A DNA stretch of 64,000 nucleotides from Paeniglutamicibacter cryotolerans (GTDB lineage Bacteria > Actinomycetota > Actinomycetes > Actinomycetales > Micrococcaceae): the NCBI RefSeq assembly GCF_014190875.1, contig NZ_JACHVS010000002.1, positions 1,015,945 through 1,079,944 on the forward strand, in the 5' to 3' direction. Shown piece by piece: positions 8,770 through 53,398 of this stretch (positions are counted from its first letter, which is position 1; each line of letters begins with the position of its first letter). The notes beneath the pieces are model-generated. The model ran no database searches, was not told the DNA's origin, and worked only from the letters and a program-made list of their open reading frames with translations. The translations under genes were made by a program, and so were the position numbers.

Positions 8770-9487
8770 GGGTTCTCCTGACGTGAATGTGGGTCCCGCT
8801 ATTTCTGATACGGGAGCCTGACCTCCACCGGCCCGCAGGCGAGCATGATCAAGGCCAGTGCCGCCTCCGGGCTATGGAATCCATAGGAGCGGCGGGTCAT
8901 GGTGCGGATCTTATTGTTCAGCCCCTCGTGCTTGCCATTGGATAGTCCCCGGCTCACCGCGGCATGGATCCCGTTGATGTGCCCGCGCAGGGTTGCCCCG
9001 GCCTTCATGAACGGACCCAGCCCGCTGTCGGAGGCCGCATCGCACCAGTCCTGGATCATCGCCATGACCTCAGCGGAGCTCAGGTCCCCGGCAAAGATCT
9101 CACGCAGGGATTCCTTGAGCAGGTACCCCCGCCAAAGTGTCCCGCCGTCCTCGCGCAGGTGATCCAGGGTGGCTGACTGTTTTTCGGTGAGGGTTCCGGG
9201 GTTTTTCAACAGGGCGAACCGGTGGCCCTTGTATTTCTTGGCGAAGGACTGGTCCGGCAGTGCCCTGGCCCGTTGCCACTGGTCCCGGCGCACCACTTCG
9301 AGCGCGTTGGTACCGAGCTGGACGACGTGGAACGGGTCGATGCAGATCACCGCGTCCGGTGCGTTGGTCCGCACCGATTTGCTGAACGCTGCTCCCATGT
9401 CCATGCTCACGGCCTCGATCGAGGCCGTGTTTTCGGGACCGATTTCGATGAAGAAGCGATCCAGGGTGGCGGCGCTCTTCCCTGCCC
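8770..9487 (-). mobile_element. ISL3-family element remnant A
   Basis: An ISL3-type left end (GGGTTCTCC...GTGAATGTGGG, 8770-8793) followed by the 3' two-fifths of an ISL3 transposase, cut off exactly where an ISAs1 end (CAGGGCTAATGC) begins at 9488. The 5' half is not found on the other side of the ISAs1 complex, so it has been lost. Confidence 0.75.
8799..9487 (-). pseudogene. ISL3-family transposase, C-terminal fragment
   Basis: The frame is open from the ISAs1 junction to a stop at 8799 and gives about 230 residues, including VSMDMGAAFSKSV, ICIDPFHVVQLG (catalytic aspartate region), and ...GLSNGKHEGLNNKIRTMTRRSYGFHS near the end (catalytic glutamate region). ISL3 transposases are usually 400-550 residues, so the zinc-finger and HTH N-terminus is missing. 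It cannot be active. Confidence 0.85.
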
Positions 9488-9492
9488 CAGGG

Positions 9493-10659
9493 CTAATGCA
9501 AAGTCGCTGACGGGGCGATGAACCCGATGCGTTCCAGCGGTCGTGCGGGGTGCTTGGACAGGTAGCGGCTTGATTTGGCGATGTTGCTGCTGTGGTTCAG
9601 GCGGTGCAGGCTGATGGCCAGGTTTCGCAGGCTGGCCGTCACCCGTGGCGCCACCCCGGTCCTGGCGTGGCTCGCGTCCTCCTGGAACGTGACGTCCCGG
9701 CACCAATGGAGGGAATTCTCTATTCGCCAATGGCCCCGGATCCAGGTGTTCAACTGCTTCGGGCTTGCCTGGTGGGCCGGCAGCGAGGTGATGAGGTAAA
9801 CGACCTCGACGGACCACTTCGTTCCCTTCAGCGGTCGTGTTTTCCGGGTCAGTTGGGCAGCTTGAAGGGCGTGGGGGAACGTGATTCCCCCGGTGAGCGT
9901 GGCGACCTTGATCCGCCGGATGCTCCTGCGCCCGTGCCCGGTGTCTCGTTGCTGGTTCCCTTGCGGGACCTCTTTCCATGGCAGGGCTTGAAGTTGCCTG
10001 AGCAGCTTGGGTTGGTTGCCTTTCACCGTCAGCAGGAAGTGCGCCCCTCGTGCATGCAGGAACTCCGCGTGTCGTCCCAGGGTGTGTAGTGCGTCGATGG
10101 TGATGATCCTTCCCTGCAGGTCGCCGAGGCTTTCCAGGAGCGAATCGAGCCGGGTGATCTCGTTGGTCTTCACGCCCACGTCCACCTGCCCGATCACGGT
10201 GCCGGTTTCGTGGTCCAGCGCCGCCATGAGGTGCACACGGTCCGCCCCACCGTTTTTCGCTCCGCGGACTTCCTTACCGTCAACGGCGATGACCTGCGCC
10301 TGGACCTGGGTTTGCATCCATGCGCCCAAGGCCTGGTCGAAGGGTTCGGCATCCACGTGGGCCAGAACGCGTTGGAAGGTGGTCACGTGCGGTGCCGTGA
10401 ATCCGGTGTTGCGCAGGGAGGTTGAGGCTGCGTACGTTGACCAGTCCGCGATGGCTGCAAAGGACTTCGCCCCGGCCAGCACGGCGCAGAGGGCTACGGC
10501 CAGGATCCAGCCCAGCCGGTGGCGGATGCCGCGGCGTTTGCGGTGGTCCGGGAATGAGGCGAGTGCCTGGAAGATGGATTGCGGTGTCACGAAGTGGTGG
10601 AGGTCTTCGGGGATGTCTTCCAGTTGGCCGTGGAGGATGCTGATGGGGGAAGATGGCAT
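9493..10659 (-). CDS. ISAs1-family transposase (intact)
   Basis: 388 residues, full length for ISAs1 transposases (DDE type). Recognisable features are the N-terminal FQALASFPDHRKRRGIRHRL, the VIAVDGKEVRGAKNGG segment with the first aspartate (near residue 175), ITIDALHTLGRHAEFLHARGAHFLLTVKGNQ with the second, and RGHWRIENSLHWCRDVTFQEDAS with the catalytic glutamate region. Its stop codon lies inside the left terminal repeat. The reading frame is intact, but its promoter region is separated from the right end by the IS481 insertion, so the element may no longer move by itself. Confidence 0.93.
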   Translation of the reverse strand: MPSSPISILHGQLEDIPEDLHHFVTPQSIFQALASFPDHRKRRGIRHRLGWILAVALCAVLAGAKSFAAIADWSTYAASTSLRNTGFTAPHVTTFQRVLAHVDAEPFDQALGAWMQTQVQAQVIAVDGKEVRGAKNGGADRVHLMAALDHETGTVIGQVDVGVKTNEITRLDSLLESLGDLQGRIITIDALHTLGRHAEFLHARGAHFLLTVKGNQPKLLRQLQALPWKEVPQGNQQRDTGHGRRSIRRIKVATLTGGITFPHALQAAQLTRKTRPLKGTKWSVEVVYLITSLPAHQASPKQLNTWIRGHWRIENSLHWCRDVTFQEDASHARTGVAPRVTASLRNLAISLHRLNHSSNIAKSSRYLSKHPARPLERIGFIAPSATLH

Positions 10660-10715
10660 GGAGGAACTCCTGTTGGAACGATGATCTAGACAATCACCAG
10701 TTTTAACAGGGGTTC

Positions 10716-10728
10716 TTCGTCATCAAAA
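10716..10728. repeat. Target duplication of IS481, left copy
   Basis: TTCGTCATCAAAA occurs here and at 14270-14282, directly abutting the two IS481 ends inside ISAs1 element A. Confidence 0.9.
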
Positions 10729-10847
10729 GTGTTTTCTCTCGGGACATCGGTAACAGTTCTGCCTCACGACATCGGTGACACTTCCACGATTAAAGCGGTA
10801 ACACTTCACCCCACCTTTAACCGCGTAAAGCACGCAGCCCTTGAGTT

Positions 10848-12783
10848 CTAGTGATCGTTGCAACACCCCCGAATCCCTCGGGAGATGCAACAACCATGAA
10901 CACCGCACCCTCACCATCAAATAATGCTTCCTTAAGGGGAAAAACAGCCGCCACACCCCCGGCCCCGGCTAAGCGCCCCAACCGGCGCCACACACCCCAA
11001 GATAAGACCGCGTTCTTCGAGGCGCTGGACCGTCTGGGCACCATCGCGGCCGCAGCCCGGGAACTGGGCTTCAACCGTGCCACTTGCACCATGTGGTCCC
11101 GCACCACTGCCCAGCCCCCGGGACAGGAATACACCCCCGCGCAGCGCGAGGAGTTCTTCGTCCTGCACGACCGCCTGAACAACGTCGCCAATGCTGCACG
11201 GCAGCTGGGGATCAACGTCCAAACTGCATTCAACTGGGCCTATTCCATCAAGGCGGTCACCCGCAGGCCCCAGCGCGCCCTGAGCGCCAGAGAACAGGAA
11301 CTCAAACCCTTGCGCGAGGGGTTCCTCACCACACTGGCGCGCGTGGGAAGCGTCACCGTCGCCGCCCGGGAGGTGGGCGTGGAACCCAGCCAAGGCGCCA
11401 GTTGGGCCAGGGCCGCCGGGATCCGCAACATCCCCCGGCTCTCGGGTCAACGCGATCAATACTTGGCACTACGCCGTGAGGGCATGCCCCAGAAGACAGC
11501 CGTAGCCGCCACGGGCGCAAAGCGGAAGAATGCAGCCCGCTGGGAACAGGCACTGATGCCGGTCATAGATCGTCTTGATACCCCAAACCTTTCATCAGAC
11601 GCGTATAAACAGGAGGTGACCACACTCGTCTGCGAAACACCTGCGCTCGAAACCTGCTTGCCCGTTTTAGAGGTTCGGGTGCCCGATTCACCGGCCAGCC
11701 TCGACCCCGGGAACCTGGAACCTGCGCTGATCCCCGAGATTCCATTGGAGGTCCTCGAAGCCACGAACAGCACCCGCTACCTGTCGCTGCCCGAGCGCGA
11801 AACGATTCGGGACATGCTCCAAGCCGGTGCCTCGCAGCGGGCCATCGCCCGGGAGCTGGGGCGTAGCCCCAGCTCGATTGGCCGGGAGATCAAGCGCAAC
11901 TCCCACCCTGTGTTGGGATACCGCCCCTACACCGCCCAGCGAACCTCCACCGCCCAGCGCCAGCGGCCCAAGCCCAGTAAGCTGGCAGCGCCGGGAGAAC
12001 TGCGTGATTACGTGCTTGCCAAGCTACGTAAGCACTGGTCCCCGGAGCAGATTTCGAACTTGTTGATCAAGGAGTTCCCCGATGACCCCTCTATGCGCGT
12101 GAGCCACGAAACGATCTATCAGGCCCTCTATCTTCAGGCCCGTGGTGGGCTAAGCCTGGAGGTGAAATCGGCCCTGCGTACCGGGCGCACCCGACGCAAA
12201 AAGCACAAGAATCCCCGGGAGCGTACGGAGCGTTTCCGGGATCCCATGGTCAATATTTCTGAGCGCCCGGCAGAGGTTGAGGACCGTGCCGTGCCCGGGC
12301 ATTGGGAAGGGGACCTGATCATCGGGGCGCACAGTGGCTCGGCGATCGGGACCCTGGTGGAACGCACCACCCGCTACGTGATGCTGATACATCTACCGGT
12401 GGATCACACGGCCGCATCGGTGCGTGACGGGCTCATCGAAGCAATGCTCACCCTGCCCGAACACTTGCGTGGTTCGCTGACGTGGGATCAGGGGTCGGAG
12501 ATGGCCAAACACCTGGCTTTCAGCGACGCGACCGACATGGATGTCTACTTCTGCGATCCACATAGCCCCTGGCAGCGCGGGTCCACCGAGAACACCAACG
12601 GGCTGCTGCGTCAGTACTTCCCCAAGAGCACCGATTTAGGTGTTTATGGGCTGGAGGATCTGGAGCATGTCGCCCAGGAGCTCAACAGCCGGCCACGTAA
12701 AACGTTGGATTGGGACACCCCGGCCGAGCGTCTACGTGATTTACTGGTCACGACATAACCACGGGTGTTGCATCGACCCCTAG
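10848..12783 (+). mobile_element. IS30-family element
   Basis: Imperfect inverted repeats CTAGTGATCGTTGCAACACC and (inverted) CTAGGGGTCGATGCAACACC bound the element. It carries one long transposase gene and lies within the 5' region of the IS481 element. No target duplication is obvious (IS30 makes only 2-3 bp). Confidence 0.85.
10896..12758 (+). CDS. IS30-family transposase with extended HTH-rich N-terminus
   Basis: 620 residues from an ATG at 10896 preceded by GGGAG; a GTG at 10851 lies in the terminal repeat and is less likely. The C-terminal half is a classic IS30 transposase: TRYLSLPERETIRDML, ASQRAIARELGRSPSSIGREI (HTH), HWSPEQISNLL, then a DDE core with HWEGDLIIG, LTWDQGSEM and STENTNGLLRQYFPK. 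The first 300 residues are unusual: four segments each look like a short HTH unit (LGTIAAAARELGFNRATCTMW, LNNVANAARQLGINVQTAFNW, VGSVTVAAREVGVEPSQGASW and a weaker fourth). Ordinary IS30 transposases are 320-460 residues. Confidence 0.92.
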   Translation: MNTAPSPSNNASLRGKTAATPPAPAKRPNRRHTPQDKTAFFEALDRLGTIAAAARELGFNRATCTMWSRTTAQPPGQEYTPAQREEFFVLHDRLNNVANAARQLGINVQTAFNWAYSIKAVTRRPQRALSAREQELKPLREGFLTTLARVGSVTVAAREVGVEPSQGASWARAAGIRNIPRLSGQRDQYLALRREGMPQKTAVAATGAKRKNAARWEQALMPVIDRLDTPNLSSDAYKQEVTTLVCETPALETCLPVLEVRVPDSPASLDPGNLEPALIPEIPLEVLEATNSTRYLSLPERETIRDMLQAGASQRAIARELGRSPSSIGREIKRNSHPVLGYRPYTAQRTSTAQRQRPKPSKLAAPGELRDYVLAKLRKHWSPEQISNLLIKEFPDDPSMRVSHETIYQALYLQARGGLSLEVKSALRTGRTRRKKHKNPRERTERFRDPMVNISERPAEVEDRAVPGHWEGDLIIGAHSGSAIGTLVERTTRYVMLIHLPVDHTAASVRDGLIEAMLTLPEHLRGSLTWDQGSEMAKHLAFSDATDMDVYFCDPHSPWQRGSTENTNGLLRQYFPKSTDLGVYGLEDLEHVAQELNSRPRKTLDWDTPAERLRDLLVTT

Positions 12784-12840
12784 AATTCGCCGCCCGCCGC
12801 CGGCACGAAGGCCAGCAGGCGGGCTGATGAACTGGAAAGT

Positions 12841-14190
12841 GTGAAAAATGATCCAGTTGACCCGACGATACGCCTCGCCATCGCCCGATGGCCACAAGAC
12901 GCACCCAGAGGAGCTGTCACCGCGTTCTGTACCGAGCACCACCTCAGCCGCAAAACGTTCTACCAAATCCTCAAACGAGCCCGCACCGAAGGACAGGTAG
13001 CCGCACTCGAACCCCGCTCGCGCCGCCCGAAAACCTCGCCCAGCTCCACCAGCGAAACCCTCAACGACCAAGCCGTCGCCATGCGCAAGTCCATGGAAGC
13101 CGCTGGCTGGGACCATGGACCGATCAGCGTGCACGACCAGATGCGCAAGCTGGGCATGCAAACCCCTTCAATTGCTTCCCTGGCCAGGATCTTCAGCGAA
13201 CGTGGCCTGGTCATCCCGGCCCCGCAGAAGCGTCCCCGCTCCTCGTACCGCTCCTTCCGCTATCCGATGCCCAACGCCTGCTGGCAGCTGGATGCTACCG
13301 AATACGTGTTGGAAGGCGGTCGCAAATGCGTGATCTTCCAGCTGCTGGATGACCATTCCCGCGTGGCCGTGGCTTCTTTAGCGGCCAGGACGGAGAACGG
13401 TCCGGATGCGGTGAAGGTTTTCCGCATGGGTGTCGCCGCCCGCGGGATGCCACAGCGCTTGCTCAGCGACAATGGCGATGCCCTGAACCCCATCCGTCGG
13501 GGCGTGATCAGCGAATTGGTCGCGTACGCCAACAGTCTGGGAGTGGCCACGATGACCGGCAAGCCGTATAAGCCCACGACTCAGGGGAAGAATGAGCGGT
13601 TTCATTCGACGTTGTTCAAGTGGTTGAAGAAGCAGCCTTTCGCCAAGGACCTCGCTGAATTGCAAGCGCAGGTTGAGGTCTTTGACCAGGCCTACAACAC
13701 GCAGCGTGGTCATCAGTCCTTGGAGGATCGGATGACACCGCAGGAGGCTTGGGATGCCACACCGGTCGCTGAGCATCTCGCGCCTGGGGAATGGGTGAAG
13801 CTCAGCACCAAGCCCGCTCCGGGCGTCGGCGAGGCTGTCCTGGCCGTACCGCCGGGTGAAGAGCAATCACCAACGCCACAGAACGGTTCAACCCCGGAGC
13901 CGGCCAAGCTCACTGCCACGCTGCGGACCGAGCACATGGCGGCAACGGGCAGTCAGTTGATGCGGGTCAATAAGAACAGGTGCCTGCGGGTTGCTGGCGT
14001 GGAGCTCTATTTGGGCAAACTGCTCCGCAGCACCATGGTGAAGGTCCTCTGGGATCAGGCGGATTTGATGGTGATCTCAATGGACGGTGAATTGATCACG
14101 AAATACGATTATCCATTCCCAGACGGCGTCACGTATCTGAGCTTGAAGCATGCCACAGCGAAATTCCAGAACCCACCAGAAATGGGGTGA
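12841..14190 (+). CDS. IS481-family transposase
   Basis: 449 residues from a GTG at 12841. The N-terminus is an HTH (GAVTAFCTEHHLSRKTFYQILKR). An integrase core follows: CWQLDATEYVLEGG (first Asp), RLLSDNGDALNP (second Asp) and TTQGKNERFHSTLFKWLKKQ (Glu). A C-terminal beta-rich domain ends the protein. It is intact, but IS30 has been inserted upstream and probably separates it from its promoter. It reads toward the right end of the element. Confidence 0.93.
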   Translation: MKNDPVDPTIRLAIARWPQDAPRGAVTAFCTEHHLSRKTFYQILKRARTEGQVAALEPRSRRPKTSPSSTSETLNDQAVAMRKSMEAAGWDHGPISVHDQMRKLGMQTPSIASLARIFSERGLVIPAPQKRPRSSYRSFRYPMPNACWQLDATEYVLEGGRKCVIFQLLDDHSRVAVASLAARTENGPDAVKVFRMGVAARGMPQRLLSDNGDALNPIRRGVISELVAYANSLGVATMTGKPYKPTTQGKNERFHSTLFKWLKKQPFAKDLAELQAQVEVFDQAYNTQRGHQSLEDRMTPQEAWDATPVAEHLAPGEWVKLSTKPAPGVGEAVLAVPPGEEQSPTPQNGSTPEPAKLTATLRTEHMAATGSQLMRVNKNRCLRVAGVELYLGKLLRSTMVKVLWDQADLMVISMDGELITKYDYPFPDGVTYLSLKHATAKFQNPPEMG

Positions 14191-14758: not shown

Positions 14759-17700
14759 ATGAATAAACGCTCACTCAAATCTGACGCCAACCTACAAACC
14801 GGTAGATTGCTTGCCCGCAGTGGGAATTGGGTGGATGCAGAGAAAGCGTTTCGGCGTGCCGTGGACTTTACTGAAGCACGAAATGCCCGGGCGCTTTATC
14901 TTTTGGGCAACGCGCAATTTCAGCTTGGTAACTATGCAAAGTCGCTGAAATCTACCGAGGCTGCGGTGGGACTTGATGGCTCGAATCCGGAGTGGCATAT
15001 ACGGCTTGGTTCGCTATACGAGCGTCTAAATCGGGATGATGCCGCAATTCAGTGCTATGAATTTGCTATTGCCAAAGGGTCACGTAACGCGGACTGGTTG
15101 AAGCGCTTAGCGAGTGCTCAGGTTCGGAATAAGAAACACCAGGATGCAAGTCGGACTCTTCGGGCCCTACTTGAATATGATGACAATAGTTCTGAAATTC
15201 TGGCTGATTACGTTGACGCAGTTCTTAAGTCGGCACCAACATGGCAGAGAATTGAAGTTCTTAACTTTGCGATAGCAAAAAATAGTCAGAAAAGCACTTG
15301 GTACACAGCTTTAGGAAACGCGTATACGGAACTTGGTCAATTTAACGATGCTGCAAAATCATACAATTATGCACATAAAATTGATAAAAACAATCCAGAA
15401 ATTGCTTTTAAACTTGGTCTTTCTTTGAGGCTTGCTGGAAGCCAAATAAAAGAAGCAAAGGAAGCTCTTGAGGCGGGTGTCGAAGTTGACGTCAAATTCC
15501 GCACAAAGGAGCTGGGCCCCGGAGCATATTTTCAAAGCCGTGGTCAGTGGCAGCCAGCAGCATATTCTTACCAGGAGTCATTAGGCGAAAACCCATTTTC
15601 GGCCGAGCTTCGGTACCGAGCAGGATTGGCATGTGATCGTACCTACGATTGGCCATCCGCCGAACGTTACTTGAGGCAAGCGGTTATTGCACGACCTGAA
15701 GCTGCTTCATGGCACTACCGTCTCGGGCTAGCCAGAGAGCGCCAGGGGCTCTATGAATCTGCGGCAGACTCATACGGCGTCGCTGTACGCCGTTCGGATA
15801 AGCCACAACAGAATTGGGTGTACCGTTGGGGATTTTGCTTACAGAAAGCGAACAAAGTCGAACTTGCGTTGCAAGTGTTTCGCCAGCTGTTTCCGAATGA
15901 TGATTCGCTTAAATGGGTGGAACAATCTGGTGACGAACACCTAACCCCATACGAATCAGAACTTCTTCGGGAAAACCTTGAATATGCATGCCAGATGCAA
16001 GATGCAAGCCTGCTGTTCGAACGGGCATCTGCTCTACTAAAGCTCGGCCAGTTTGAGCTAGCTCTCTGCGGATTTGAAACCGCTGTGGTTCGCGATAGTC
16101 GCCAACGCCCTCTGGGATTCTTCCGTTTGGCCGTGACATATATGGCATTGGGCAGGAACGAAGATGCGATTCGTGCATTCCTCAGCACAAGTTCCTTCCC
16201 CCGTCCAGATGGGATCACAACAGATCAGTACTTTAAGCATAAATGGCAGTATGAATCGATGGAATATGTGGAGTTCTTAGAAACGCTTCCGGTACGTTCC
16301 AATGTCGTCCTCTACGAGAGCTATTTTGGAACAAAAATTGATTGCAACCCGGCTGCGATCTATCGTGAAATGAGAAATAATCCAAAATATGTAGATTTCT
16401 TGCATGTTTGGGTGATTACGCCTGGAACAAGTGTGCCAAGTGACGTCGCGAATGACCCTCGTGTCGCCTTAGTCCTCCGAGGATCAACGTTATATCGAAA
16501 GTACCTTGCGACTGCAAAGTATTTGATCAATAACGTGACCTTCCCTAGCTTCTTCACTCGTAGAGATGGCCAAAACTATCTTAATACGTGGCACGGCACT
16601 CCGCTCAAGACCCTTGGCCGAGATATCCAAACTGGATTCATGGAACACGCAAATGTCAGTCGTAATTTCTTACAGGCGACTCACATGCTTGCACCTAATC
16701 AACACACACAAGACACTCTTATTTCTAGGTATGAAATAGAAGGCCTTTACACTGGAACTGTGGCGCGAGTGGGGTCACCCAGGCTGGACAAGACCCTGAA
16801 TGCCTCGCCGGAGTCCTGCGGCAAGCTTCGAGCCACCTTGGGCATTCCCGATGATGGAAAAGCTGTAGTTTTTTATGCGCCCACGTGGAGGGGTTCTCAT
16901 CGAGAGAAGTCTTTTGATAAGAAGCGTCTAGTGGATGATCTAGCACGATTGGAGGCTTTGGATGCTCATGTGCTTTTCAGAGCCCATCACCTCACAGAGG
17001 CCTTACTCTATAACCTGAAGCTTGGCGTAAAGGTAGTTCCCGCGGAAATCGACACGTATGACGTTCTGGCAATTGCTGATGTCTTGATCACCGACTACTC
17101 TAGTCTTCTATTTGACTTCTTAGCCACCGGAAAACCTATGGTCTTTTACGCTTATGACCTAGACGCATACACCCAGGAACGCGGGCTCTATTTTGAAATG
17201 GAAAGCTTGCCTGGAGCGCTTGCTTTGTCAATTGATGAACTTATTGGGTGTGTGTCTACTGCGCTCGTATCTGGGGTTACTGATGCAGAAAAGTATGAGG
17301 TAGCGAAGATTGAATTCACGCCGATGGAGGATGGTAAGGCGGCCGATCGTGCTGTCAGGTATTTTTTCTCAGAGGCACATGATCACAGAAAAGACCTGAT
17401 CGTGGATCAGAAATGTATACTCCTTATTCATCAAAGCCTGATGCCAAATGGAATAACTAGCTCTTTTCTAAATTTATTAAATAATTTAGACCCATTACAA
17501 TTTCGTATTATATTTCTTTTTGATTCTCAATCATTAATTAATGACAATGATCGGATGAATAAGTTCAATCTTTTACCAAATTATGTTCAAAGAATTTCTC
17601 GCATTGGTTCACAACTTGTTTCACTCGAGGAGCGGTGGGTGATTGATAAATTTAACACTCAAGGCGAGTGGTCGAGTGGCGAGCAAGAAGATATCTATCG

Positions 17701-18595
17701 CAAAGGTTTTCAGCGAGAATTTAAAAGAATTTTTGGGTGTAGCAAATTTGATTCAGTTATTGAATTTGATGGTTATGCACCGTTTTGGGTCGCACTTTTA
17801 GGGGCAGGAGATAAGTTAGTTAACAATAGAATAATTTACATGCATAATAGAATGAAGCAAGAATGGTCAACAAAATATGGCGAACTTAAGAATACATTTT
17901 CACTTATTTCCTGGTATGATAAATTTGTTTCGGTCTCAAAGACAACTTCAGATCTTAATATGAATGAATTGTCAGGTAACTTTGATCTCGATTCGTCGCG
18001 TTTTGTCCACGCTGACAACCTTCTCCAACCAAATGATATTATTGAGATGTCTAAAGATGTAATTGACGCAGATATCTTGGAATTTATTAAAGATAGCGAT
18101 GAGATATGGCTGACGATAGGTCGCCTATCTCCGGAGAAATCACATCTAAAATTATTCACGGCATTTAAAGAACATATTAAGATCCAAACTAATGCTAAAT
18201 TATTGTTGTTGGGCGACGGTCCGCTGCGACAAGAATTGGATTACTTCGTTCAAAAAAATAATCTACAAAAAAATATTTTCATTGCAGGACGCAGATCTAA
18301 TCCATTTTCAATCATGACTATAGCTGATGCTTTTATTCTGGCATCAGATCATGAGGGGCAGCCGATGGTACTTCTTGAAGCACTTGTGATGGGGCTCCCG
18401 ACGGTGGCAACAGACATTGTTGGGAGTCGTGGTGTTCTTGGTTCCGGACTTGGTTCGTTGGTCGAAAATTCCGTTAATGGCCTGATTGACGGACTCAAGC
18501 TTGGTCGGTCGCATCAACGCTCTGTGGAGTTTAATGTTGATGACTATCAGGCGACGGCTTTGGCTCAGTTCATTTCTCATGTACAGGGCTCTTGA
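14759..18595 (+). CDS. TPR-TagF-like phosphotransferase-GT4 giant fusion
   Basis: 1278 residues. Residues 1 to about 500 are a TPR solenoid (repeats such as NWVDAEKAFRRAVDF, ALYLLGNAQFQLGNYAKSLKS, DAAIQCYEFAIAKG, WYTALGNAYTELGQFNDAAKSYNYA). Residues 515-880 are a TagF-like polyol-phosphate transferase: NTWHGTPLKTLGRDI from N609, APTWRG from 707, FRAHH near 742 and ITDYSS from 777. From about 884 a GT4 glycosyltransferase follows: LMPNGITSSFLNLLNNL, TIGRLSPEKSH from 1119 and DHEGQPMVLLEAL from 1197. The ATG at 14759 is preceded by AGGA. The chain may polymerise a glycosyl-polyol-phosphate polymer, with the TPR part aligning chain or partners. Its GT4 half (about 17400-18340) is much richer in A and T than the rest, suggesting a separately acquired module. 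Confidence 0.9.
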   Translation: MNKRSLKSDANLQTGRLLARSGNWVDAEKAFRRAVDFTEARNARALYLLGNAQFQLGNYAKSLKSTEAAVGLDGSNPEWHIRLGSLYERLNRDDAAIQCYEFAIAKGSRNADWLKRLASAQVRNKKHQDASRTLRALLEYDDNSSEILADYVDAVLKSAPTWQRIEVLNFAIAKNSQKSTWYTALGNAYTELGQFNDAAKSYNYAHKIDKNNPEIAFKLGLSLRLAGSQIKEAKEALEAGVEVDVKFRTKELGPGAYFQSRGQWQPAAYSYQESLGENPFSAELRYRAGLACDRTYDWPSAERYLRQAVIARPEAASWHYRLGLARERQGLYESAADSYGVAVRRSDKPQQNWVYRWGFCLQKANKVELALQVFRQLFPNDDSLKWVEQSGDEHLTPYESELLRENLEYACQMQDASLLFERASALLKLGQFELALCGFETAVVRDSRQRPLGFFRLAVTYMALGRNEDAIRAFLSTSSFPRPDGITTDQYFKHKWQYESMEYVEFLETLPVRSNVVLYESYFGTKIDCNPAAIYREMRNNPKYVDFLHVWVITPGTSVPSDVANDPRVALVLRGSTLYRKYLATAKYLINNVTFPSFFTRRDGQNYLNTWHGTPLKTLGRDIQTGFMEHANVSRNFLQATHMLAPNQHTQDTLISRYEIEGLYTGTVARVGSPRLDKTLNASPESCGKLRATLGIPDDGKAVVFYAPTWRGSHREKSFDKKRLVDDLARLEALDAHVLFRAHHLTEALLYNLKLGVKVVPAEIDTYDVLAIADVLITDYSSLLFDFLATGKPMVFYAYDLDAYTQERGLYFEMESLPGALALSIDELIGCVSTALVSGVTDAEKYEVAKIEFTPMEDGKAADRAVRYFFSEAHDHRKDLIVDQKCILLIHQSLMPNGITSSFLNLLNNLDPLQFRIIFLFDSQSLINDNDRMNKFNLLPNYVQRISRIGSQLVSLEERWVIDKFNTQGEWSSGEQEDIYRKGFQREFKRIFGCSKFDSVIEFDGYAPFWVALLGAGDKLVNNRIIYMHNRMKQEWSTKYGELKNTFSLISWYDKFVSVSKTTSDLNMNELSGNFDLDSSRFVHADNLLQPNDIIEMSKDVIDADILEFIKDSDEIWLTIGRLSPEKSHLKLFTAFKEHIKIQTNAKLLLLGDGPLRQELDYFVQKNNLQKNIFIAGRRSNPFSIMTIADAFILASDHEGQPMVLLEALVMGLPTVATDIVGSRGVLGSGLGSLVENSVNGLIDGLKLGRSHQRSVEFNVDDYQATALAQFISHVQGS

Positions 18596-19051: not shown

Positions 19052-19710
19052 TCAGCACGGCCGGAGGCCCGCCGTGGACAACAGTATACGAAGCCGATAG
19101 TTCCGGTGATTCCGGTAGCCCCGACCGATCCGTTTCATGTTCTTCGCTGTCAGGTTCGCCGCCTCACTACGGGCATTGGTCAACCGGGTCACGCAGAACA
19201 CCTGAAGCTCCGCCTTCCACGACTTCAGGGTCCGCAGCAGCGATTTTGCCTCCGGCATCGTGGTCGCCTGCACGCCGGCTTCCAGCGCCTCCCAAGCCGT
19301 TCCGAACGCCTCCAAATCGGTGGTTTTTAGCAGCTCGCGGACCTTCTCCTTCACCGCATACACGACACCGAGCTCAATATCGGCGGCGATGATTTCCTCC
19401 AACCGCACCTGCTGTCTGGAGCTCATGTTCTCCACGTTGCAGGTCAGCAGCTTCCGGTACTTGTATGACGGTTCGGTCATCCGTCCGCGGCGGCCTACCG
19501 TCTCGTGGGAACGGCGCAAACGCACCGCGGTGACCATCCGATTACTCAAGGCAACAACGTGGAAATGGTCCACCGTGATCTCCGCTTCAGGCAGCGCCTC
19601 GCACACCGCCTTGCGGAACTCGGCTGACATGTCCATCGCCACGATCCTCACCCGGTCCCTCCAGGCTCGGGGCCGTTTCGCGATCCAGGAGAGCACGGTG
19701 GGTCCGCGCC
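19052..19710 (-). pseudogene. ISL3 transposase, C-terminal half (disrupted)
   Basis: It continues the frame of 23601-24232: ...GPTVLSWIAKRPRAWRDRVRIVAMDMSAEF, VDHFHVVALSN, and near the end NARSEAANLTAKNMKRIGRGYRNHRNYRLRIL, with the stop at 19052. Catalytic aspartate and glutamate regions are present, but the N-terminal zinc-binding and HTH parts are 3.9 kb away. Confidence 0.88.
19701..19710. repeat. Target duplication of ISAs1 element B, left copy
   Basis: GGTCCGCGCC here and again at 23601-23610, exactly abutting the ISAs1 termini CACGGCTAATGC and GCATTGCCCGTG. Confidence 0.93.
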
Positions 19711-19715
19711 CACGG

Positions 19716-20064
19716 CTAATGCATAGTCGTTGAGAAGCCCGTAAATCCAATGGTTTTCAGCGGCCGAAGCGGGTCAAAGGACATCAACCGGTTCCCCCGG
19801 GCAATGTTCGTGGACCCCTCCAAACGCAGCAAACCGATCGCCAGGCTACGCATCGAGGCCATGACCCGGGGCGCAGCCCCGGTACGCACCTGCGATTTGT
19901 CCTCCAAATACGTCACGTCCCGGGTCCAATGCAACGAATTCTCGATGGCCCAATGCCCGCGCACCCAGGTATTCAGCTGCCGCGGGCTTCCCCGGTGAAC
20001 CGGCACCGAGGTGATCAGGTAAACGGTTTCGGTGGACCAGGTGGTTTCGCTGAATATTCGTAGG
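19716..20064 (-). pseudogene. ISAs1 transposase B, C-terminal part (disrupted)
   Basis: It encodes ...[20 protein letters not shown], then [24 protein letters not shown] (catalytic glutamate region) and ends [14 protein letters not shown]. It lines up with residues from about 265 of the intact copy at 9493-10659. The upstream part is beyond the IS21 insertion. Confidence 0.88.
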
Positions 20065-20162
20065 TTTGGGAGCCACCGGATATCGCCGTTCAGAGCCAGC
20101 AATATTGCCGTTGAGAGCCGGTACCTCCCCGGACGGGAGCCACCGGCTCTCAGCAACATCTC

Positions 20163-20912
20163 TTAGCTCATCCCCAGCGCGGTCTTCTCCCTCATGTTGT
20201 AGCTACCGGTCTCGACCCAGATCGTGTTGTGAACGATCCGATCCATGATCGCGTCCGCGTGAACCCCGGACCCGAGCCTGGCATGCCAGTCCGACTGCTT
20301 GTACTGGGTGCAGAACACCGTTGCCGTCGATCCGTACCGACGCTCCATCAACTCCAACAACATCCGCAAGAACGCTCCCTTCGGAGGATCCAACAACCAC
20401 TCATCGACGACCAGCATGCTGAAGGACCCATACTTTTTCAGGAACTTGTTCTGCCCCAGGGGTTTGTCTTCGGCTTGCCGCCATTCCTCTTCCAGATCCG
20501 GCATGCGCACGTAATGCGTGCGGATCAGCTTCAAACATGCCTGCTTCGCCAGGGCGCAGCCCAGGTACGACTTCCCCGATCCGGTGAATCCCTGAAAGAC
20601 GACATTGTGGAACTGGTCAACGAAGGCGCAGCTCGACAGCTCAGTAAGTGTCATCCTGTTCAGCCCACGTTCCTCCAACAGATCCACCTGCCTCAGATCG
20701 GCGTTGGGGTAACGCAACCCAGCACGCCTGATCAGACCGCTGACCTTCGAATGGGTGAAGGACGCGTACGCATGGTCCACGGCTAGCCGCAAACGCTCCT
20801 CAAACGTCAGCCCCATGCTGAGGACCTCGTCCTGGGACTCCACGGCCTCGAGCAAGGCGCCGGCGGACATTTCCCGCAATTTCCTTTTGGTTTCCGTATC
20901 CATCGAGGTCAT
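20163..20912 (-). CDS. istB: IS21-family helper ATPase IstB
   Basis: 249 residues, the normal length. This AAA+ ATPase assembles on target DNA and activates the IstA transposase. Walker A is GFTGSGKSYLGCALA near residue 112; the Walker B region is SMLVVDEWLLDPP; the N-terminal part (MSAGALLEAVESQDEVLSMGLTFEERLRLAVDH) is the IstB-type helical domain. Its start overlaps the end of istA by four bases, indicating translational coupling. Frame intact. Confidence 0.95.
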   Translation of the reverse strand: MTSMDTETKRKLREMSAGALLEAVESQDEVLSMGLTFEERLRLAVDHAYASFTHSKVSGLIRRAGLRYPNADLRQVDLLEERGLNRMTLTELSSCAFVDQFHNVVFQGFTGSGKSYLGCALAKQACLKLIRTHYVRMPDLEEEWRQAEDKPLGQNKFLKKYGSFSMLVVDEWLLDPPKGAFLRMLLELMERRYGSTATVFCTQYKQSDWHARLGSGVHADAIMDRIVHNTIWVETGSYNMREKTALGMS

Positions 20913-22489
20913 CGGGCACCGCCAGAATAGTAATCGCTGCCGCGCACGTATCCGCCCGGTTCAGGCTCTGGAAGGGAATCATTCCAGGTATTGGCCCGGT
21001 CTTGACCGGTGTCCAAGATCGGCCGGATATGCGCATACCGCGGCGAACGTACCTGGCTCTGCAGCGCCAGGAGGCACGCCGCTTCCAGCCGTTCCGGGCC
21101 GAACCTCTTCGACAGCCTCAACACCGCCAGTGCTGCGTTCAGGCCCTGCTCAGCGAGCGGAACCGACGCGAAGATCCGATCCACGACTTCCACCGCGTTT
21201 GGTCCGATGCGACTCGCCCAGCCCCTGACCCTTTTCGGTTCCCACTGCTTCCACTGCTGTTCGGCCGGGATATCCGAATCATTGGTGCGATACTGATTGA
21301 TCGCGGAGGCGGGAAGTAACTGATGGCTGGTCAGCCGCTCCTGGTTCCGGTAGACCTCAAGCATTGTTTCCGTGATGCGCAGGTCAACGCTTGCCCCGAC
21401 ATTGACCAGCGGAACCGAGTAGAAGTTCCGCTTCCACGTCACGTAGCTGTTCTTCGCGACCTTACGCCGATAGACCCACTCGCTGATTTCATACGGCACC
21501 GCCGGCAAGGGGCGAAGCAACGGCTGCTCTTCTTCCCGAAAAACGCTCAACCGGGAGCCCGCCCGCTTCTGGAATGGCTCATCGTTATACGCCTGGACCC
21601 GTTCACGGATCGCCGTACGAAGCTGAGGCAACGAGGTGAACTGGGTATCGCGCAGTCCGGCAATGATCCAGGTCGCCACGTGGCCCACCGTATTTTCTAC
21701 ACTAGATTTATCTTTTGGCTTCCGGACACGGCCAGGCAACACTGCTGCCACATAGTGGCCAGCCAGATGCCGGTAAGAATCATTGAGCACGATCTCGCCC
21801 TCGGCAGGATGTTTGATGACCCCGGTTTTGAGGTTGTCCGGGATGATGCGTGGAACAGAACCACCCAAGGCCTCAAACATGGAAACGTGGGCACGCAGCC
21901 AACTGGCTTGCTTCATATCCAGACAGGCCTCGACAAAGCCCAGCCGGCTAAAGGGCAGGCACGCCACAAACAGATAGACCGTCTGCTTCGTGCCGGTGTT
22001 TGGATCATGCAAGGTCATGGTTGGACCGGACCAGTCGACCTCGACGCTCATCCCGGCCTTGTGCTCGACCCTGGACGTTGCGCTGTGTTCCAGGACGTAG
22101 CGGTGATATGTCTTGCAGAACCTGTCGTAGCCCATGGTGGCCTGGCCTTTGACGGATTCTTCGTCAACGTATTCGCCGTGCAGGAGCTTGAGCGTCACTC
22201 CGACTTTCGCCAGTTGCTTATGGACAACGCCCCAGTCTGGCTGGGCGAAAACGCTTTGGTGGTCCCCGCGACCGGGGAACACCAAAGCATAAACAGCATT
22301 CTCTGTTTTGTCTTGGATATCCGTCCAGCTGATTCCGGCGTTTGATGCAGCATCAAGGACGTTGGAAACGCTGTTCCTGGAGATGCTTTGCGTGGTGGCA
22401 ATATTGCGCCCGGACATTCCCTCGGCACGAAGCTGGAGTATCAGCTTCGCATTGATTTTTCGTACCATTGGTCTTGCTCCTTCTACCAT
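20909..22489 (-). CDS. istA: IS21-family transposase IstA
   Basis: Up to 526 residues; a start at MVRKINAKLILQLRAEGMSGRNIA (22468) is also reasonable because it begins directly with the HTH. It has a DDE core: SVEVDWSGPTMTL (first Asp), PRIIPDNLKTGVIKH (second Asp), KDKSSVENTVGHVATWI (Glu). The C-terminal beta-domain (YEISEWVYRRKVAKNSYVTWKRNFYSVP) is typical. Frame intact and next to istB, so this IS21 may still be mobile. Confidence 0.95.
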   Translation of the reverse strand: MVEGARPMVRKINAKLILQLRAEGMSGRNIATTQSISRNSVSNVLDAASNAGISWTDIQDKTENAVYALVFPGRGDHQSVFAQPDWGVVHKQLAKVGVTLKLLHGEYVDEESVKGQATMGYDRFCKTYHRYVLEHSATSRVEHKAGMSVEVDWSGPTMTLHDPNTGTKQTVYLFVACLPFSRLGFVEACLDMKQASWLRAHVSMFEALGGSVPRIIPDNLKTGVIKHPAEGEIVLNDSYRHLAGHYVAAVLPGRVRKPKDKSSVENTVGHVATWIIAGLRDTQFTSLPQLRTAIRERVQAYNDEPFQKRAGSRLSVFREEEQPLLRPLPAVPYEISEWVYRRKVAKNSYVTWKRNFYSVPLVNVGASVDLRITETMLEVYRNQERLTSHQLLPASAINQYRTNDSDIPAEQQWKQWEPKRVRGWASRIGPNAVEVVDRIFASVPLAEQGLNAALAVLRLSKRFGPERLEAACLLALQSQVRSPRYAHIRPILDTGQDRANTWNDSLPEPEPGGYVRGSDYYSGGAR

Positions 22490-22611
22490 GTTCTGTCACA
22501 TGGTGGGAGGAGCTTATTTGATGGCTCTCAAGCGCACTATGGGTGGCTCTGAAAGAGAATATTCGTCTTTTGGCGGGGTGGCTCTGAACGGCAATATTGG
22601 TGGCTCTCAAA

Positions 22612-23464
22612 GAGTCAAATACTCAGTTTCGCCTTGTTTCCGGGTTTTCCTGGTCAATTGGGCCACCTGCTCCACATGTGGAAACCGCACCCCGGTCGGG
22701 ATGCTGGCGACCTTGATCCGCCGAATGCTCCGGCGTCCGTGCCCGGTATCGCGCTGGTCGTTGCCCACGGGAACCGCGTCCCAGGGCAGGGCCGCCAGAT
22801 GTTTGAGCAGCTTGGGCTGGTTTCCCTTCACGGTCATCACGAAATGGGCGCCTCGCTTGTGCAGGAACACCGCATGGCGCCCCAACGTATGCAGGGCATC
22901 AACGGTAATCACCTTGCCTTTCAACGGTCCCAGGGTCTTCAGCAGGGAGTCGAGCTGGGTGATCTCATGGGTCTTAATGCCGACCTCGACCTGCCCCAGG
23001 ACGGTCCGGCTCTCGTGGTCCAGGGCCGCCATGAGGTGCACGCGGTCCCCGCCACCGTTCTTGGCTCCGCGGACTTCCTTCCCATCGATGGCAATGACCG
23101 GGGCTTCCACCTGGGTTTGCATCCACATTCCCAGGACCCGGTCAAACGCGTCGGCATCCACCCGGGCCAGCACGCGTTGGAACGTGGTCACGTGCGGGGC
23201 TTTGAACCCGGTTCCGGGCAGGGATGTTTCGGCCGCGTGCGCGGCCCAGTCGGCAATCGCGGCAAAGGTTTTCGCGCCGGTGAGCACCGCACACAAGGTG
23301 GCGGCCATGATCCAGGCCAGCGGGTGGCGGATGCCGCGGGGCTTGCGGGGATCCGGGAAGGATGCCAGTGCTGCGAAGACGGTTTCCGGTGTCACCAGGG
23401 GGCGCAGTGTCTCGGGGATCTCTTCCAGTTGGCCATGGAGGATATTGATGGGGGAAGATGGCAA
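22612..23464 (-). pseudogene. ISAs1 transposase B, N-terminal part (disrupted)
   Basis: It starts MPSSPINILHGQLEEIPE and reads through FAALASFPDPRKPRGIRHPL, VIAIDGKEVRGAKNGGGDR and VDALHTLGRHAVFLHKRGAHFVMTVKGNQ. It breaks after TRKTRKQGETEY at the IS21 end. It is closely similar to the intact copy at 9493-10659 but clearly a different variant. Confidence 0.9.
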
Positions 23465-23600
23465 GGAAGCGCTCCTGTGTGTTGCATGACGATCTAGACA
23501 ATCACCATGTGTAACAGGAGCGTTTCGTCTTTAAAAGCACCGGCGGCCCGTGTCGGAAAATCATTCAGGGACGGCTACCGACGACTTTGCATTGCCCGTG

Positions 23601-24232
23601 GGTCCGCGCCGGCCATCGACAACGTCCAGGATCGTGCCCGTTTCCAGATCCGTGAACACAATCGACCACGGCTCGACCCGCATCACCTTGCCCGTGGTTC
23701 CCAGCACGTAGCGGACCTTACGAAACCGATGCTCGTCCACCCCCAGCCAGCGCACGTGTCTCCCGTCCACGTCCCCGACGGTCTTCTCCGTCGCGGTCAG
23801 TTTGCGCATCACCGTGGGCCAGGAGACACCGGTGGCACGGGCGATCCCGGTCACTGCCCGCAGCTCGTTCATACCGGCGTCCACGATCTCCCCGACCAGG
23901 CGCGTGGTCAGACGGGAGCGTAGGGGCAGCTGCTCGGTGCACTGCACAAAGGAGCGCCGCTTGCAGGCGTCCTCCAGACAGGCCAGTCGGCGCTTGCGCA
24001 CCCAGACCTGCAGGTCCTTCCCTCCGCACGCGACGTCCTTGACCCGGTGCACAGGTCTGGCCTGGATGCGCGAGGAAAGAACCCCGCAGGAAGGGCACCC
24101 GGCCTCGGTGGAAATGGGCTCGACGACAACGGTGCGCCCGGCCGTGGAAGAGGCCTCCACGGACAGCACCCGGTAGTCATCGAGATTGAACAAAATCGAC
24201 GCGGCATCAACAGCGCCGGTATCCTTGATCAC
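23601..24232 (-). pseudogene. ISL3 transposase, N-terminal half (disrupted)
   Basis: It begins near MIKDTGAVDAASILFNLDDYRVLSVEAS, then has the zinc-binding CPSCG...C...C cluster (GCPSCGVLSSR, LACLEDACKRRSF) and the HTH (ELRAVTGIARATGVSWPTVMRKL), then WLGVDEHRFRK with the first catalytic aspartate. It stops making sense at the ISAs1 end; the sequence continues in frame at 19710. Confidence 0.9.
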
Positions 24233-24332
24233 AGCTCGTAGTCCTCGGTTATGAATGTCTCGACAACACCCATAATCGTAGGGCTACGAGCCCTATCTAT
24301 ATTTGGGACACCACGCTAAAAGTCCGAGAGCC

Positions 24333-25780
24333 CGTTTAACTCCTTGTCCCTCCAGCACCACCAGCGTCCAGCTGAAAACTGCGTGAAGGATAAGGAGATG
24401 GGAACAATGGATATCGTGCATAAGCGTGCTGCGGGAATCGATATCTCCAAACGCGACGCCAAAGTCGCGGTAAGGAAACCCGGCAGCCGGAAAGGAACCT
24501 ACCGAACGCAGGTCAAGACCTTTGGAGCTACCACGGCACAAATTCGTGAACTGATCAGCCATTTGAAAACCGAAGGTGTCACCGTGATCGTCATGGAAGC
24601 CACCAGCGATTATTGGAAACCGTTCTATTTCTTGATGGAAGAAGAACACCTGCCCGTCATGTTGGTCAATGCCAAACAGGCCCGCAATATCCCGGGCCGT
24701 AAGAGTGACGTCAACGATGCCACCTGGCTAGCTGATCTGGCCGCCCACAACCTCTTGGCAGCGTCCTTCATCCCGCCCGAACCGATACGGCACCTACGCG
24801 ACCTGACTCGAGCCCGTTCGGCACTGGTCCATGATCGAACCAGGGTATATCAGCGGTTGGAGAAGTTCCTGGAATCATCCGGGATCAAGCTCTCCAGCGT
24901 CGCGTCGAACCTGACCAGCGTTTCCTCACGCGCGATGTTGGAGGCTCTGGTCGGCGGTGAACGAGATCCGCTGGTCTTGGCCGACCTCTCGTTGCGTTCC
25001 ATGCGCCGGAAAATTCCGGAACTCATCGAAGCACTCGAAGGACGCTTCACCGAGCACCATGCGTTCATGGTGAAACTGCACCTGCAACACATCGATCTGC
25101 TTTCCGGGCAGATCAACACCCTCAATGGCCAGATTGACGAAGCGATGGAACCGTTTGATGCGGCCTGCCAGGCCCTGATCACGATTCCGGGGATCAGTGC
25201 GAACACCGCCCAGGTGGCCATTGCGGAAATCGGCGTTGACATGACGGTGTTTGCCGATGCCGCGCATCTGGCGTCCTGGGCCGGCGTCTGCCCTGGGCAG
25301 AATGAGTCGGCCGGACGTCAAAGGTCCTCGCATACCCGTGGAGGCAACGTCTATCTCAGAGCGGCCTTGGGCACAGCTGCGCTGGCGGCCATCAAGCACA
25401 AGGATTCATTCCTTGCCGCTAGGTACCGGCGGCTTTATCCGCGCCGCGGCGGAAACAGAGCCCTGGTCGCCATTGAACACAGCATCATCATTGCCGTCTG
25501 GCATATGCTCGCCCATGGTGAGGTCTTCAAGGAGTTGGGCGCGGACTACTACGACGAACGTAATAAGGACCGTGCACGGCTCAGGGCAGTCAATGAGCTG
25601 GAACGCCTCGGCTTTGACGTCCAAATCAGCCCGGCTGCATGAACAACGAGCAGCACTAAGGCCTCCACCTTCATATCGCACATTGCCTCCCAGCAGGGCG
25701 TCTACGAGCGGCTGGGTCTATTTGGTGCGGGATCAAGCCGTGGAACGTTGGGCATGCACACTTCAGTATTCACGTACTAG
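24333..25780 (+). mobile_element. IS110-family element
   Basis: A single DEDD transposase with 74 bases of non-coding DNA before it and about 140 after it. It is bounded on both sides by near-identical ISL3-type end sequences (24313-24332 and 25781-25800), which are probably not its own termini. IS110 elements lack clear terminal repeats, so the ends are approximate. Confidence 0.7.
24407..25642 (+). CDS. IS110-family DEDD transposase
   Basis: 411 residues from the ATG at 24407, placed about 9 bases behind AAGGAG; the ATG at 24398 directly touches that site. The N-terminal RuvC-like DEDD domain shows GIDISKRDAKVAV (first Asp), MEATSDYWKPF (Glu) and GRKSDVNDATWLADL (Asp pair). The C-terminal Tnp_20 domain shows ITIPGISANTAQVAIAEIG and SWAGVCPGQNESAGRQRSSHTRGGN with the catalytic serine region. 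Family members recombine DNA guided by an element-encoded bridge RNA from a non-coding end. Frame intact, so probably functional. Confidence 0.95.
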   Translation: MDIVHKRAAGIDISKRDAKVAVRKPGSRKGTYRTQVKTFGATTAQIRELISHLKTEGVTVIVMEATSDYWKPFYFLMEEEHLPVMLVNAKQARNIPGRKSDVNDATWLADLAAHNLLAASFIPPEPIRHLRDLTRARSALVHDRTRVYQRLEKFLESSGIKLSSVASNLTSVSSRAMLEALVGGERDPLVLADLSLRSMRRKIPELIEALEGRFTEHHAFMVKLHLQHIDLLSGQINTLNGQIDEAMEPFDAACQALITIPGISANTAQVAIAEIGVDMTVFADAAHLASWAGVCPGQNESAGRQRSSHTRGGNVYLRAALGTAALAAIKHKDSFLAARYRRLYPRRGGNRALVAIEHSIIIAVWHMLAHGEVFKELGADYYDERNKDRARLRAVNELERLGFDVQISPAA

Positions 25781-25890: not shown

Positions 25891-26949
25891 TCATACAACG
25901 GTGGTCAGTCCTGATTTTATATCAATTCCATAGAGCAAAGAATTGATAATCATAGTGGTAATGGGCAGTGATTTTGGTCCAACATCTGGATGATCTAAAA
26001 TTCCAGGATGATCCACATTGAAAAAAGATAGTCTAGAAATCAATGGATCAATTAATATTTGTTCAATATATTTATATTGCGGAGATCGCTTAGAACAAAT
26101 CACAACATTTCGAACTTCAGGTTCAATATTTTTACAGTTTTCCAAATATTCGGAGACAGTTCTTCTGAATAGTGATTCTTTTGTTTCTATAAAAATACTA
26201 TTTACTGTAAAATGTGAATCCGACCAAAGCTCTACGTAGTGATGATCCGAAACTACAGGATCTACGGAAATAGACTTATAATCACCAATTAAACCGTGAT
26301 AGAGTGCGGCCGTCCCCCCTTTGGATGTTCCATATAAAACAATATTTAAACTCATTATGTTTTTACTTATGCTTATTTTTTTAATAAGTTTTTGAATATT
26401 TTCAACATTGTTCAGGTGATAGGAAGTGTTCATATAGAAATTTCCTACCACACCCCCGACGTCAGAAATTCGAAGAATTGCAGTCTCAGGGGTTATGTAT
26501 TTTTGAGCAGTCGAAAAGTTTTGGGCAAAATATCTCATTAAACTAGATGAATAAATAGGGGCGTTCATTGCTGAAAAAATAACAAGCAGCTTTGTATTTC
26601 CTAGATCGACAGTAGGAGCGGTATAGCTATAAACAACCCCTTCTGCGCTCATAGAATACTCCCCAGACTTAAGTGGGTTCCATAGGGCATTAAGTCGGCG
26701 TTCGTGGACATAGCGCGTTATGTAGTCGTCTGTAACATACCCATAAAAACCTCGTGCGGCTAGGCCAACAAGTAGATCACGCCGGTCTGGATTGTGCCGT
26801 GCCACTTGAGTAAGGTTTACTCGCTCAGAGCTACCTTCTCTGTGCTGAACATGGATGAAGGAGGTGGCCCCGTTCGAGGCATCGATAGCATCCAATGCGC
26901 CGGCACCTTCAGACGCTTCCACATGCAAAACTGATGGATTAGAATTCAT
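25891..26949 (-). CDS. XcbB/CpsF-like alpha/beta-hydrolase-fold protein
   Basis: 352 residues from an ATG at 26949, chosen because the product then aligns end to end with the paralogue at 32160-33209. It has an alpha/beta-hydrolase nucleophile elbow, LYGTSKGGTAALYHG, with serine 209, a preceding VIFSAMN strand, ILRISDVGGVVGNFY, and a C-terminal VDHPGILDHPD that could supply the histidine. The family is found in capsule loci (XcbB of meningococcal serogroup X, CpsF); its reaction is not firmly known, and esterase or acyl-transfer roles have been considered. It is visibly AT-rich (about 40% GC by eye), especially 25900-26600, suggesting transfer from another host. A decayed IS3 copy lies directly upstream. 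Confidence 0.75.
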   Translation of the reverse strand: MNSNPSVLHVEASEGAGALDAIDASNGATSFIHVQHREGSSERVNLTQVARHNPDRRDLLVGLAARGFYGYVTDDYITRYVHERRLNALWNPLKSGEYSMSAEGVVYSYTAPTVDLGNTKLLVIFSAMNAPIYSSSLMRYFAQNFSTAQKYITPETAILRISDVGGVVGNFYMNTSYHLNNVENIQKLIKKISISKNIMSLNIVLYGTSKGGTAALYHGLIGDYKSISVDPVVSDHHYVELWSDSHFTVNSIFIETKESLFRRTVSEYLENCKNIEPEVRNVVICSKRSPQYKYIEQILIDPLISRLSFFNVDHPGILDHPDVGPKSLPITTMIINSLLYGIDIKSGLTTVV

Positions 26950-27049
26950 GAAATTTCTTTCCGTCTCGTTAGTCTTCATGGAAATATCATCCATGAATTG
27001 ACCAAGGGTATCCGCTGGATATGCGTTTACATCAAGAATCAATGGTGGC

Positions 27050-27560
27050 ACAATCCCTCGTCACCTTCAAAGCTTTTGGAGAACGGCGGTCTCAGAATTG
27101 TCGGGTAGCAGCCCGGGTCCTCCCCCCAGGGCACGGTCGGGTGGCCGGTGGGGTTCGACCACCGGTAATATGAGGCCCTGGAAATGCCGAGTCTCTGGCA
27201 CATCCAGGTGATGGGGAAGAACGCCTTCTGTTGCTCGATGAACGCATAGAAATCTTCTACAGGTGCTTCGCGGCAAAGAAGGCGCTGGCTTTTCCCAAAA
27301 ATTCGTTCTCCCGTTTCAACGCGGCGTTCTCCGCCTGCAGGGCCTTGTCCTTGGCCCATTCGACCGGACCTGCTTCATCGGCGCCGGCATCCGGGTGTTC
27401 GGCCTTCCAGGCCCTCACCCAGTTACCCAACGTGCCTTCTTTGACACCTACGTCGGTAGCCACGTCGTTGGTGGAACGTCCCGAGGAAATGACGAGTTCA
27501 ACGGCCCCTGCTTTGAACTCCTCGGTAAATTTACAGAGATTCGACATGGAACTAATTCTC
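27050..27560 (-). mobile_element. IS3-family element remnant
   Basis: It contains orfA and the first 40 or so codons of orfB (PVEDFYAFIEQQKAFFPITWMCQRLGISRASYYRW). OrfB is cut after that, and the catalytic core is missing. The junction with the hydrolase-like gene lies near 27050-27130. Confidence 0.8.
27257..27547 (-). pseudogene. IS3-family OrfA (orphaned)
   Basis: 96 residues starting MSNLCKFTEEFKAGAVELVISSG behind AGGAGAA, with an HTH (STNDVATDVGVKEGTLGNWVRAWK) and a C-terminal leucine zipper (KALQAENAALKRENEFLGKASAFFA), the usual OrfA layout. The coding frame is intact, but the partner OrfB is truncated, so no functional OrfAB transposase can be made from it. Confidence 0.85.
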
Positions 27561-50744: not shown

Positions 50745-50745
50745 G

Positions 50746-53350: not shown

Positions 53351-53398
53351 GGTTCTTCCCTTCGGTGGGTGAAACTAACAGCGTCTGGAATTTGGAAG

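Follow-up and report, generated by a model that had tools for sequence, protein, structure and literature searches.

A 64,000-nucleotide stretch of the Paeniglutamicibacter cryotolerans genome (contig NZ_JACHVS010000002.1, positions 1,015,945 to 1,079,944; hereafter the window, numbered from its first letter) contains a gene at 14759..18595 on the plus strand that, in our assessment, probably encodes an actinobacterial TPR-TagF-GT-B polymerase of the Cps3D/Cps7D type, producing poly(glycosylglycerol phosphate), most likely type II wall teichoic acid. Its domains, catalytic residues and predicted fold were observed directly, as was gene linkage in its relatives. The coding frame is intact over 1278 codons; its ATG start is preceded by a purine-rich stretch, and it could be extended upstream in frame by at most 10 codons.

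Three parts of the protein were recognized using Pfam, homologs, a predicted structure and structural alignment. TPR families start at residue 13, and the TPR solenoid occupies approximately residues 13–480 (14795..16198), its helix pairs appearing in the model from residue 79. Next comes a TagF-like glycerol-phosphate transferase domain (residues 509–870, 16283..17368; PF04464 Glyphos_transf, E 1.9e-80) carrying H612 of the WHG motif, P615 and H743. The last part is a GT4 glycosyltransferase domain of the GT-B type (about residues 886–1273, 17414..18577) with R1122, K1127, E1199 and E1207, within which PF00534 matched residues 1110–1238 (E 3.2e-23). Structure prediction for residues 79–1278 (1200 residues, from 46 aligned sequences) gave a mean pLDDT of 91.5 and a pTM of 0.90, with secondary structure that was a helical solenoid at first and then alternated between strands and helices. 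Homologs were collected at E ≤ 1e-30, yielding 1,951 proteins from 7,985 scored candidates, and the best 120 were studied in detail; 118 of these 120 place WHG beyond residue 450, that is, they have a TPR-sized N-terminal extension. Co-occurrence of these domains in one frame is far beyond chance. A first-pass annotation had proposed just this fusion of TPR, TagF-like and GT4 parts in a single 1278-residue frame, and it was borne out by the Pfam matches to each segment, the 120 best homologs and the predicted structure. The motifs it cited are present (NTWHG with H612, APTWRG at 707, TDYSS at 778, GRLSPEK at 1121, EGQPMVLLEA at 1199), and we found RAHH (H743) as well.

The same annotation had considered the domain order and the N-terminal TPR to be unusual. 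They are not: Cps3D and Cps7D likewise run TPR, glycerol-phosphate transferase, GT-B (PMC11666461; statements cited by PMC number here and below come from passages of those papers). We therefore rejected novelty of the fusion order, which is already seen in PDB entry 8QOY; this enzyme architecture is known, not new. That entry is Cps3D of Actinobacillus pleuropneumoniae serotype 3, which shares with the window protein the order of the three parts, the catalytic residues and 35% identity across 948 structurally aligned residues; its R982/K987 and EX7E pair correspond to R1122/K1127 and E1199/E1207. Cps3D differs in its shorter TPR, in being a dimer and in being encoded, together with CpsA/CpsC, in the group 2 capsule locus of a Gram-negative bacterium (PMC11666461). 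Cps7D of A. pleuropneumoniae serotype 7, also a Gram-negative capsule enzyme, is closer in size, with 1,277 residues to 1,278 and a long TPR in both. Compared by published residue numbers, Cps7D H612, H743 and R1123 have counterparts at the same or neighboring numbers, H612, H743 and R1122, and K1132 would correspond to K1131 (PMC5974469, PMC11666461). Other known enzymes are more distant in design. TagF of Staphylococcus epidermidis (3L7I–3L7M) makes a glycerol-phosphate homopolymer and has no matching GT4 part. Bcs3 of Haemophilus influenzae type b (8A0C, 8A0M) likewise unites a TagF-like transferase and a domain that transfers sugar in one protein, but its order is CroT-CrpP-CriT-SH3b (CrpP being a phosphatase), it has no TPR and it uses ribitol-phosphate (PMC10299916, PMC11666461).

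Neither active site is degenerate as judged by residue, an outcome that would have told against a working two-site enzyme. H612, P615, H743, R1122, K1127, E1199 and E1207 are invariant both in a 19-row alignment and in a 46-row alignment, numbered from residue 79, that includes Pasteurellaceae members. Cps7D made no polymer when mutated to H612A, H743A, R1123A or K1132A (PMC5974469). By the features of the Cps3D/Cps7D-type family, the window protein has the TagF-like active-site motifs (scored on four of them, WHG/H612, APTWRG, RAHH/H743 and TDYSS), the R, K and EX7E residues of the C-terminal GT-B part, and the TPR found in most members, which is N-terminal in Cps3D and Cps7D. Ten of the 120 best homologs failed a "GR" pattern in the GT4 part; we considered degeneracy there and rejected it, since the consensus is ARLSPEK and R1122 and K1127 are invariant in an alignment holding all ten. 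As for the donor, a proline after WHGT has been linked with glycerol-phosphate and a glycine with ribitol-phosphate (PMC10299916). TWHGTP occurs in all 120 best homologs, and ribitol-phosphate, our first guess, was rejected on account of this proline. A second IspD-like match lies in the genome at C1:2282964, so the host may also be able to supply CDP-ribitol.

The activities, the donor, the sugar and the destination of the polymer are here predicted from sequence, as follows. GCT (glycerol-3-phosphate cytidylyltransferase) would supply CDP-glycerol to the TagF-like site, which would move sn-glycerol-3-phosphate from it onto the terminal sugar; the GT4 site, presumably retaining, would then use a nucleotide-sugar to place the next sugar on the terminal glycerol. 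With the two sites taking turns on one chain end, poly(glycosylglycerol phosphate) would result. Truncations of Cps3D and Cps7D indicate that TPR gives processivity (PMC11666461), and the solenoid may hold or admit the nascent chain here as in Cps7D. Because of gene linkage, a TagGH-type ABC transporter is the most likely exporter, and an LCP enzyme would join the product to the wall as type II wall teichoic acid, perhaps O-acetylated at times by XcbB/CpsF-like enzymes. Homology supports the earlier proposal of one actinobacterial chain with two complete active sites, resembling enzymes that make poly(glycosylglycerol phosphate) in vitro.

The own genome contains candidate genes for such a pathway. 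A TagD-like GCT is found at C2:982 kb, 54% identical over 129 residues to the GCT of Actinobacillus vicugnae. Beside it are genes for a GT2 glycosyltransferase, a CDP-alcohol transferase, another GT2, TagH-like and TagG-like proteins, an LCP protein and GalU. The combination that we took to mark a wall-glycopolymer locus, a TagGH-like ABC exporter with an LCP ligase, is therefore present beside GCT, and the TagG-like permease exceeds the PF01061 cut-off. TagA/TarA (PF03808), our mark of type I wall teichoic acid, had no match in the genome, with B. subtilis as positive control. The same enzyme could instead make a loosely held capsule or exopolysaccharide, given that its closest characterized relatives make group 2 capsules (PMC11666461) and that capsule loci share the XcbB/CpsF-like genes found at 22 of 77 polymerase loci; we consider this unlikely. 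KpsC/KpsS (PF05159), our mark of a group 2 capsule, had no match in the own genome, with E. coli as positive control. When the A. vicugnae export genes were compared with seven window frames and C2:960–1016.5 kb, only the exporter ATPase matched, a query that hits both kinds of exporter and so does not discriminate; CpsC had no match there, and CpsA had weak matches only.

Gene linkage was surveyed at 77 loci in named genomes (from the best 80 of 494), counting partners at E ≤ 1e-15 within up to ~10 kb per side, less at contig ends. In P. antarcticus (L052) an intact TPR-TagF-GT4 gene comes immediately after the series LCP, TagG, TagH, three further genes and GCT. The polymerase has GCT as its immediate upstream neighbor at four other loci too (L054, L059, L062 and L077), and TagGH-like exporter and LCP genes share the polymerase locus in L052, L071, L038 and L059. 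At the 29 loci of Actinomycetota we counted GCT at 7, TagH at 8, TagG at 8, LCP at 5 and XcbB/CpsF at 7. The 26 Pseudomonadota loci had GCT (17), a TagH-like ATPase (11) and XcbB/CpsF (11), with TagG and LCP at none; the 12 Bacillota loci had GCT (7), TagH (8), TagG (1) and LCP (4). Capsule export was queried with three A. vicugnae genes, for a PF01061 permease, a Poly_export protein and the intervening 379-residue protein, which has no Pfam match. They matched 8, 4 and 10 of the 26 Pseudomonadota loci, respectively (Poly_export or the 379-residue query, 10). None of the three, our mark of capsule export, was found at any of the 29 actinobacterial loci, where TagG- and LCP-type genes do occur, which argues against a capsule.

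The 77 loci belong to Actinomycetota (29), Pseudomonadota (26), Bacillota (12), Campylobacterota (6), Myxococcota (2), Bacteroidota (1) and Thermodesulfobacteriota (1). Architecture was scored for 76 of them (L050 gave no row), with 59 TPR-TagF-GT4 and 17 without TPR; locus frames were taken from the first possible start, which can make N-termini too long, and some contigs are truncated. A FastTree phylogeny of 98 catalytic regions, which carried long-branch and composition warnings, separated a 72-row clade (68 with TPR) from a 26-row TPR-less clade of Bacillota and actinobacteria. The window polymerase clusters with Micrococcaceae, to which most of the named proteins among the 120 best homologs also belong. 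Among the same-genus genomes, the catalytic region of the G012 polymerase is identical to that of P. antarcticus W2, and that of the G003 polymerase to that of Arthrobacter sp. C2, which points to a Paeniglutamicibacter-like host. Two TPR-TagF-GT4 copies were noted close together per genome at L013 with L017 (Arthrobacter sp. EPSL27, one contig, within ~30 kb), L021, L025 and L033; such pairs may make two different polymers.

Several observations weigh against the proposed polymerase of type II wall teichoic acid. At 15 of the 29 actinobacterial loci none of GCT, TagH, TagG, LCP or XcbB/CpsF was found, nine of these loci spanning at least 23 kb. In the own genome no biosynthetic partner directly adjoins the polymerase gene, which lies ~48 kb from the export/GCT cluster, among transposases, at 45% GC; GCT itself scored 161.6 bits, just under the curated cut-off of 165.4, and the TagH- and TagG-like proteins scored well under the NCBIfam exporter cut-offs. 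At C2:972–977 kb (L009:12423-16034 and 16039-17472, both minus strand), a protein in which PF04464 occurs twice along with TarS_C1 adjoins a Stealth-family protein and could perhaps synthesize the main wall polymer; PF04464-type matches in frames of ~1176–1227 residues occur in several genomes of the family. Matches spanning at least 1,000 residues were found in 6 of 59 genomes (own included), among them 4 of 14 other same-genus genomes, and in two of those four (G003 and G013) the frames, of 1073 and 1092 residues, end before the GT4 donor-binding half. Four locus frames have TPR and TagF with a GT4 part ending before that half (L049:9968-13177, L070:1377-4643, L090:1471-4680, L092:1498-4728). 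The missing half was not found in the ~1.4 kb beyond the L090 and L092 frames, nor in the ~10 kb downstream in L070 or in L049 (the record matching G003), the latter showing only a weak match elsewhere. Two-site polymerase is therefore not kept by all relatives.

Some of these facts would suit an enzyme that makes no long chain and modifies another polymer, furnishing the main teichoic acid of the double-PF04464 protein with a linker or with side branches of glycosylglycerol-phosphate: that protein and its Stealth neighbor, the presence in several relatives of one more large TagF-like gene close to the polymerase, and the patchy, partly shortened occurrence in the genus. We think this improbable, given whole-length likeness to enzymes that polymerize in vitro on their own (PMC5974469, PMC8262930). 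Less probable still is a decaying, recently acquired gene that is functionless in this strain. The GC content of 45%, the shortened copies in two same-genus genomes and the transposases on both sides (ISL3-type and two with rve integrase cores at 8799..14190; ISL3-type, an IS21 pair and IS110-type at 19052..25642) favor decay, as does a broken paralog adjoining GCT (L010:614-1974, C2:980.6–982.0 kb). This paralog is in two frames, 57% identical to the polymerase over residues 605–822 with the remainder in the other frame, and the element before it resembles, on visual inspection, a transposon remnant. The polymerase gene, by contrast, retains an unbroken 1278-codon frame, all catalytic residues and a confidently predicted fold, and we prefer to read it as a functional polymerase.

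Further genes of possible wall function are found in the window, all on the minus strand. Two TPR-less TagF-GT4 fusions, of 857 residues (5948..8521) and 899 residues (27751..30450), are paralogs; like Bacillota fusions of this kind they have TagF then GT4 in one chain, as in the polymerase, and differ from it in having no TPR and in belonging to the TPR-less clade. Two XcbB/CpsF-like proteins (25891..27051 and 32160..33209) are probable polymer O-acetyltransferases. Both are of the alpha/beta-hydrolase type and related to a gene beside capsule polymerases, probably at the Cps7E position; in A. vicugnae the gene that lies downstream of the polymerase encodes a homolog of the first. While 9HVZ matched the XcbB/CpsF-like protein by sequence, Foldseek with its model ranked general alpha/beta hydrolases first, 9HVZ not being among the best 50, and VIA-align placed the meningococcal capsule O-acetyltransferase 6YUO at the top but tied with others. 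An LCP-family glycopolymer transferase is encoded at 35333..36484; in other bacteria, members of this family attach wall polymers to peptidoglycan. A 429-residue protein (2159..3448), weakly matched by PF04464 (44.5 bits), is a possible accessory phosphotransferase. The minus strand also carries a type I-E-like cas cluster (Cas1, CRISPR_assoc, Cas5, CT1975, Cse1, Cas3) at 49788-58618. On the plus strand, a 337-residue frame at 30804-31817 matched neither Pfam nor, at E ≤ 1e-5, any frame from the 77 relative loci.

Passages of two papers bear on why this matters: the capsule authors described type II wall teichoic acid synthesis as little understood and left open the role of TagF-like polymerase homologs (PMC5974469), and the pathways for types II–IV have been called uncharacterized (PMC11666461). 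Among the matches listed in an open-access literature search, we found neither a Gram-positive wall context for such an enzyme nor the enzyme in actinobacteria. The interest thus lies in the Gram-positive wall context of a known enzyme design, in a pathway with no pinned-down polymerase. With a Gram-positive homolog that keeps every catalytic residue and is linked in relatives to GCT, a TagGH-like exporter and an LCP ligase, the type II question becomes testable by existing Cps7D assays. The window enzyme itself probably builds a sugar-glycerol-phosphate chain for the Gram-positive cell wall. For the family, we see about an even chance that TPR-TagF-GT4 enzymes are the type II wall teichoic acid polymerases of actinobacteria, one machine serving both Gram-negative capsules, with Kps-type export, and Gram-positive walls, with TagGH and LCP.
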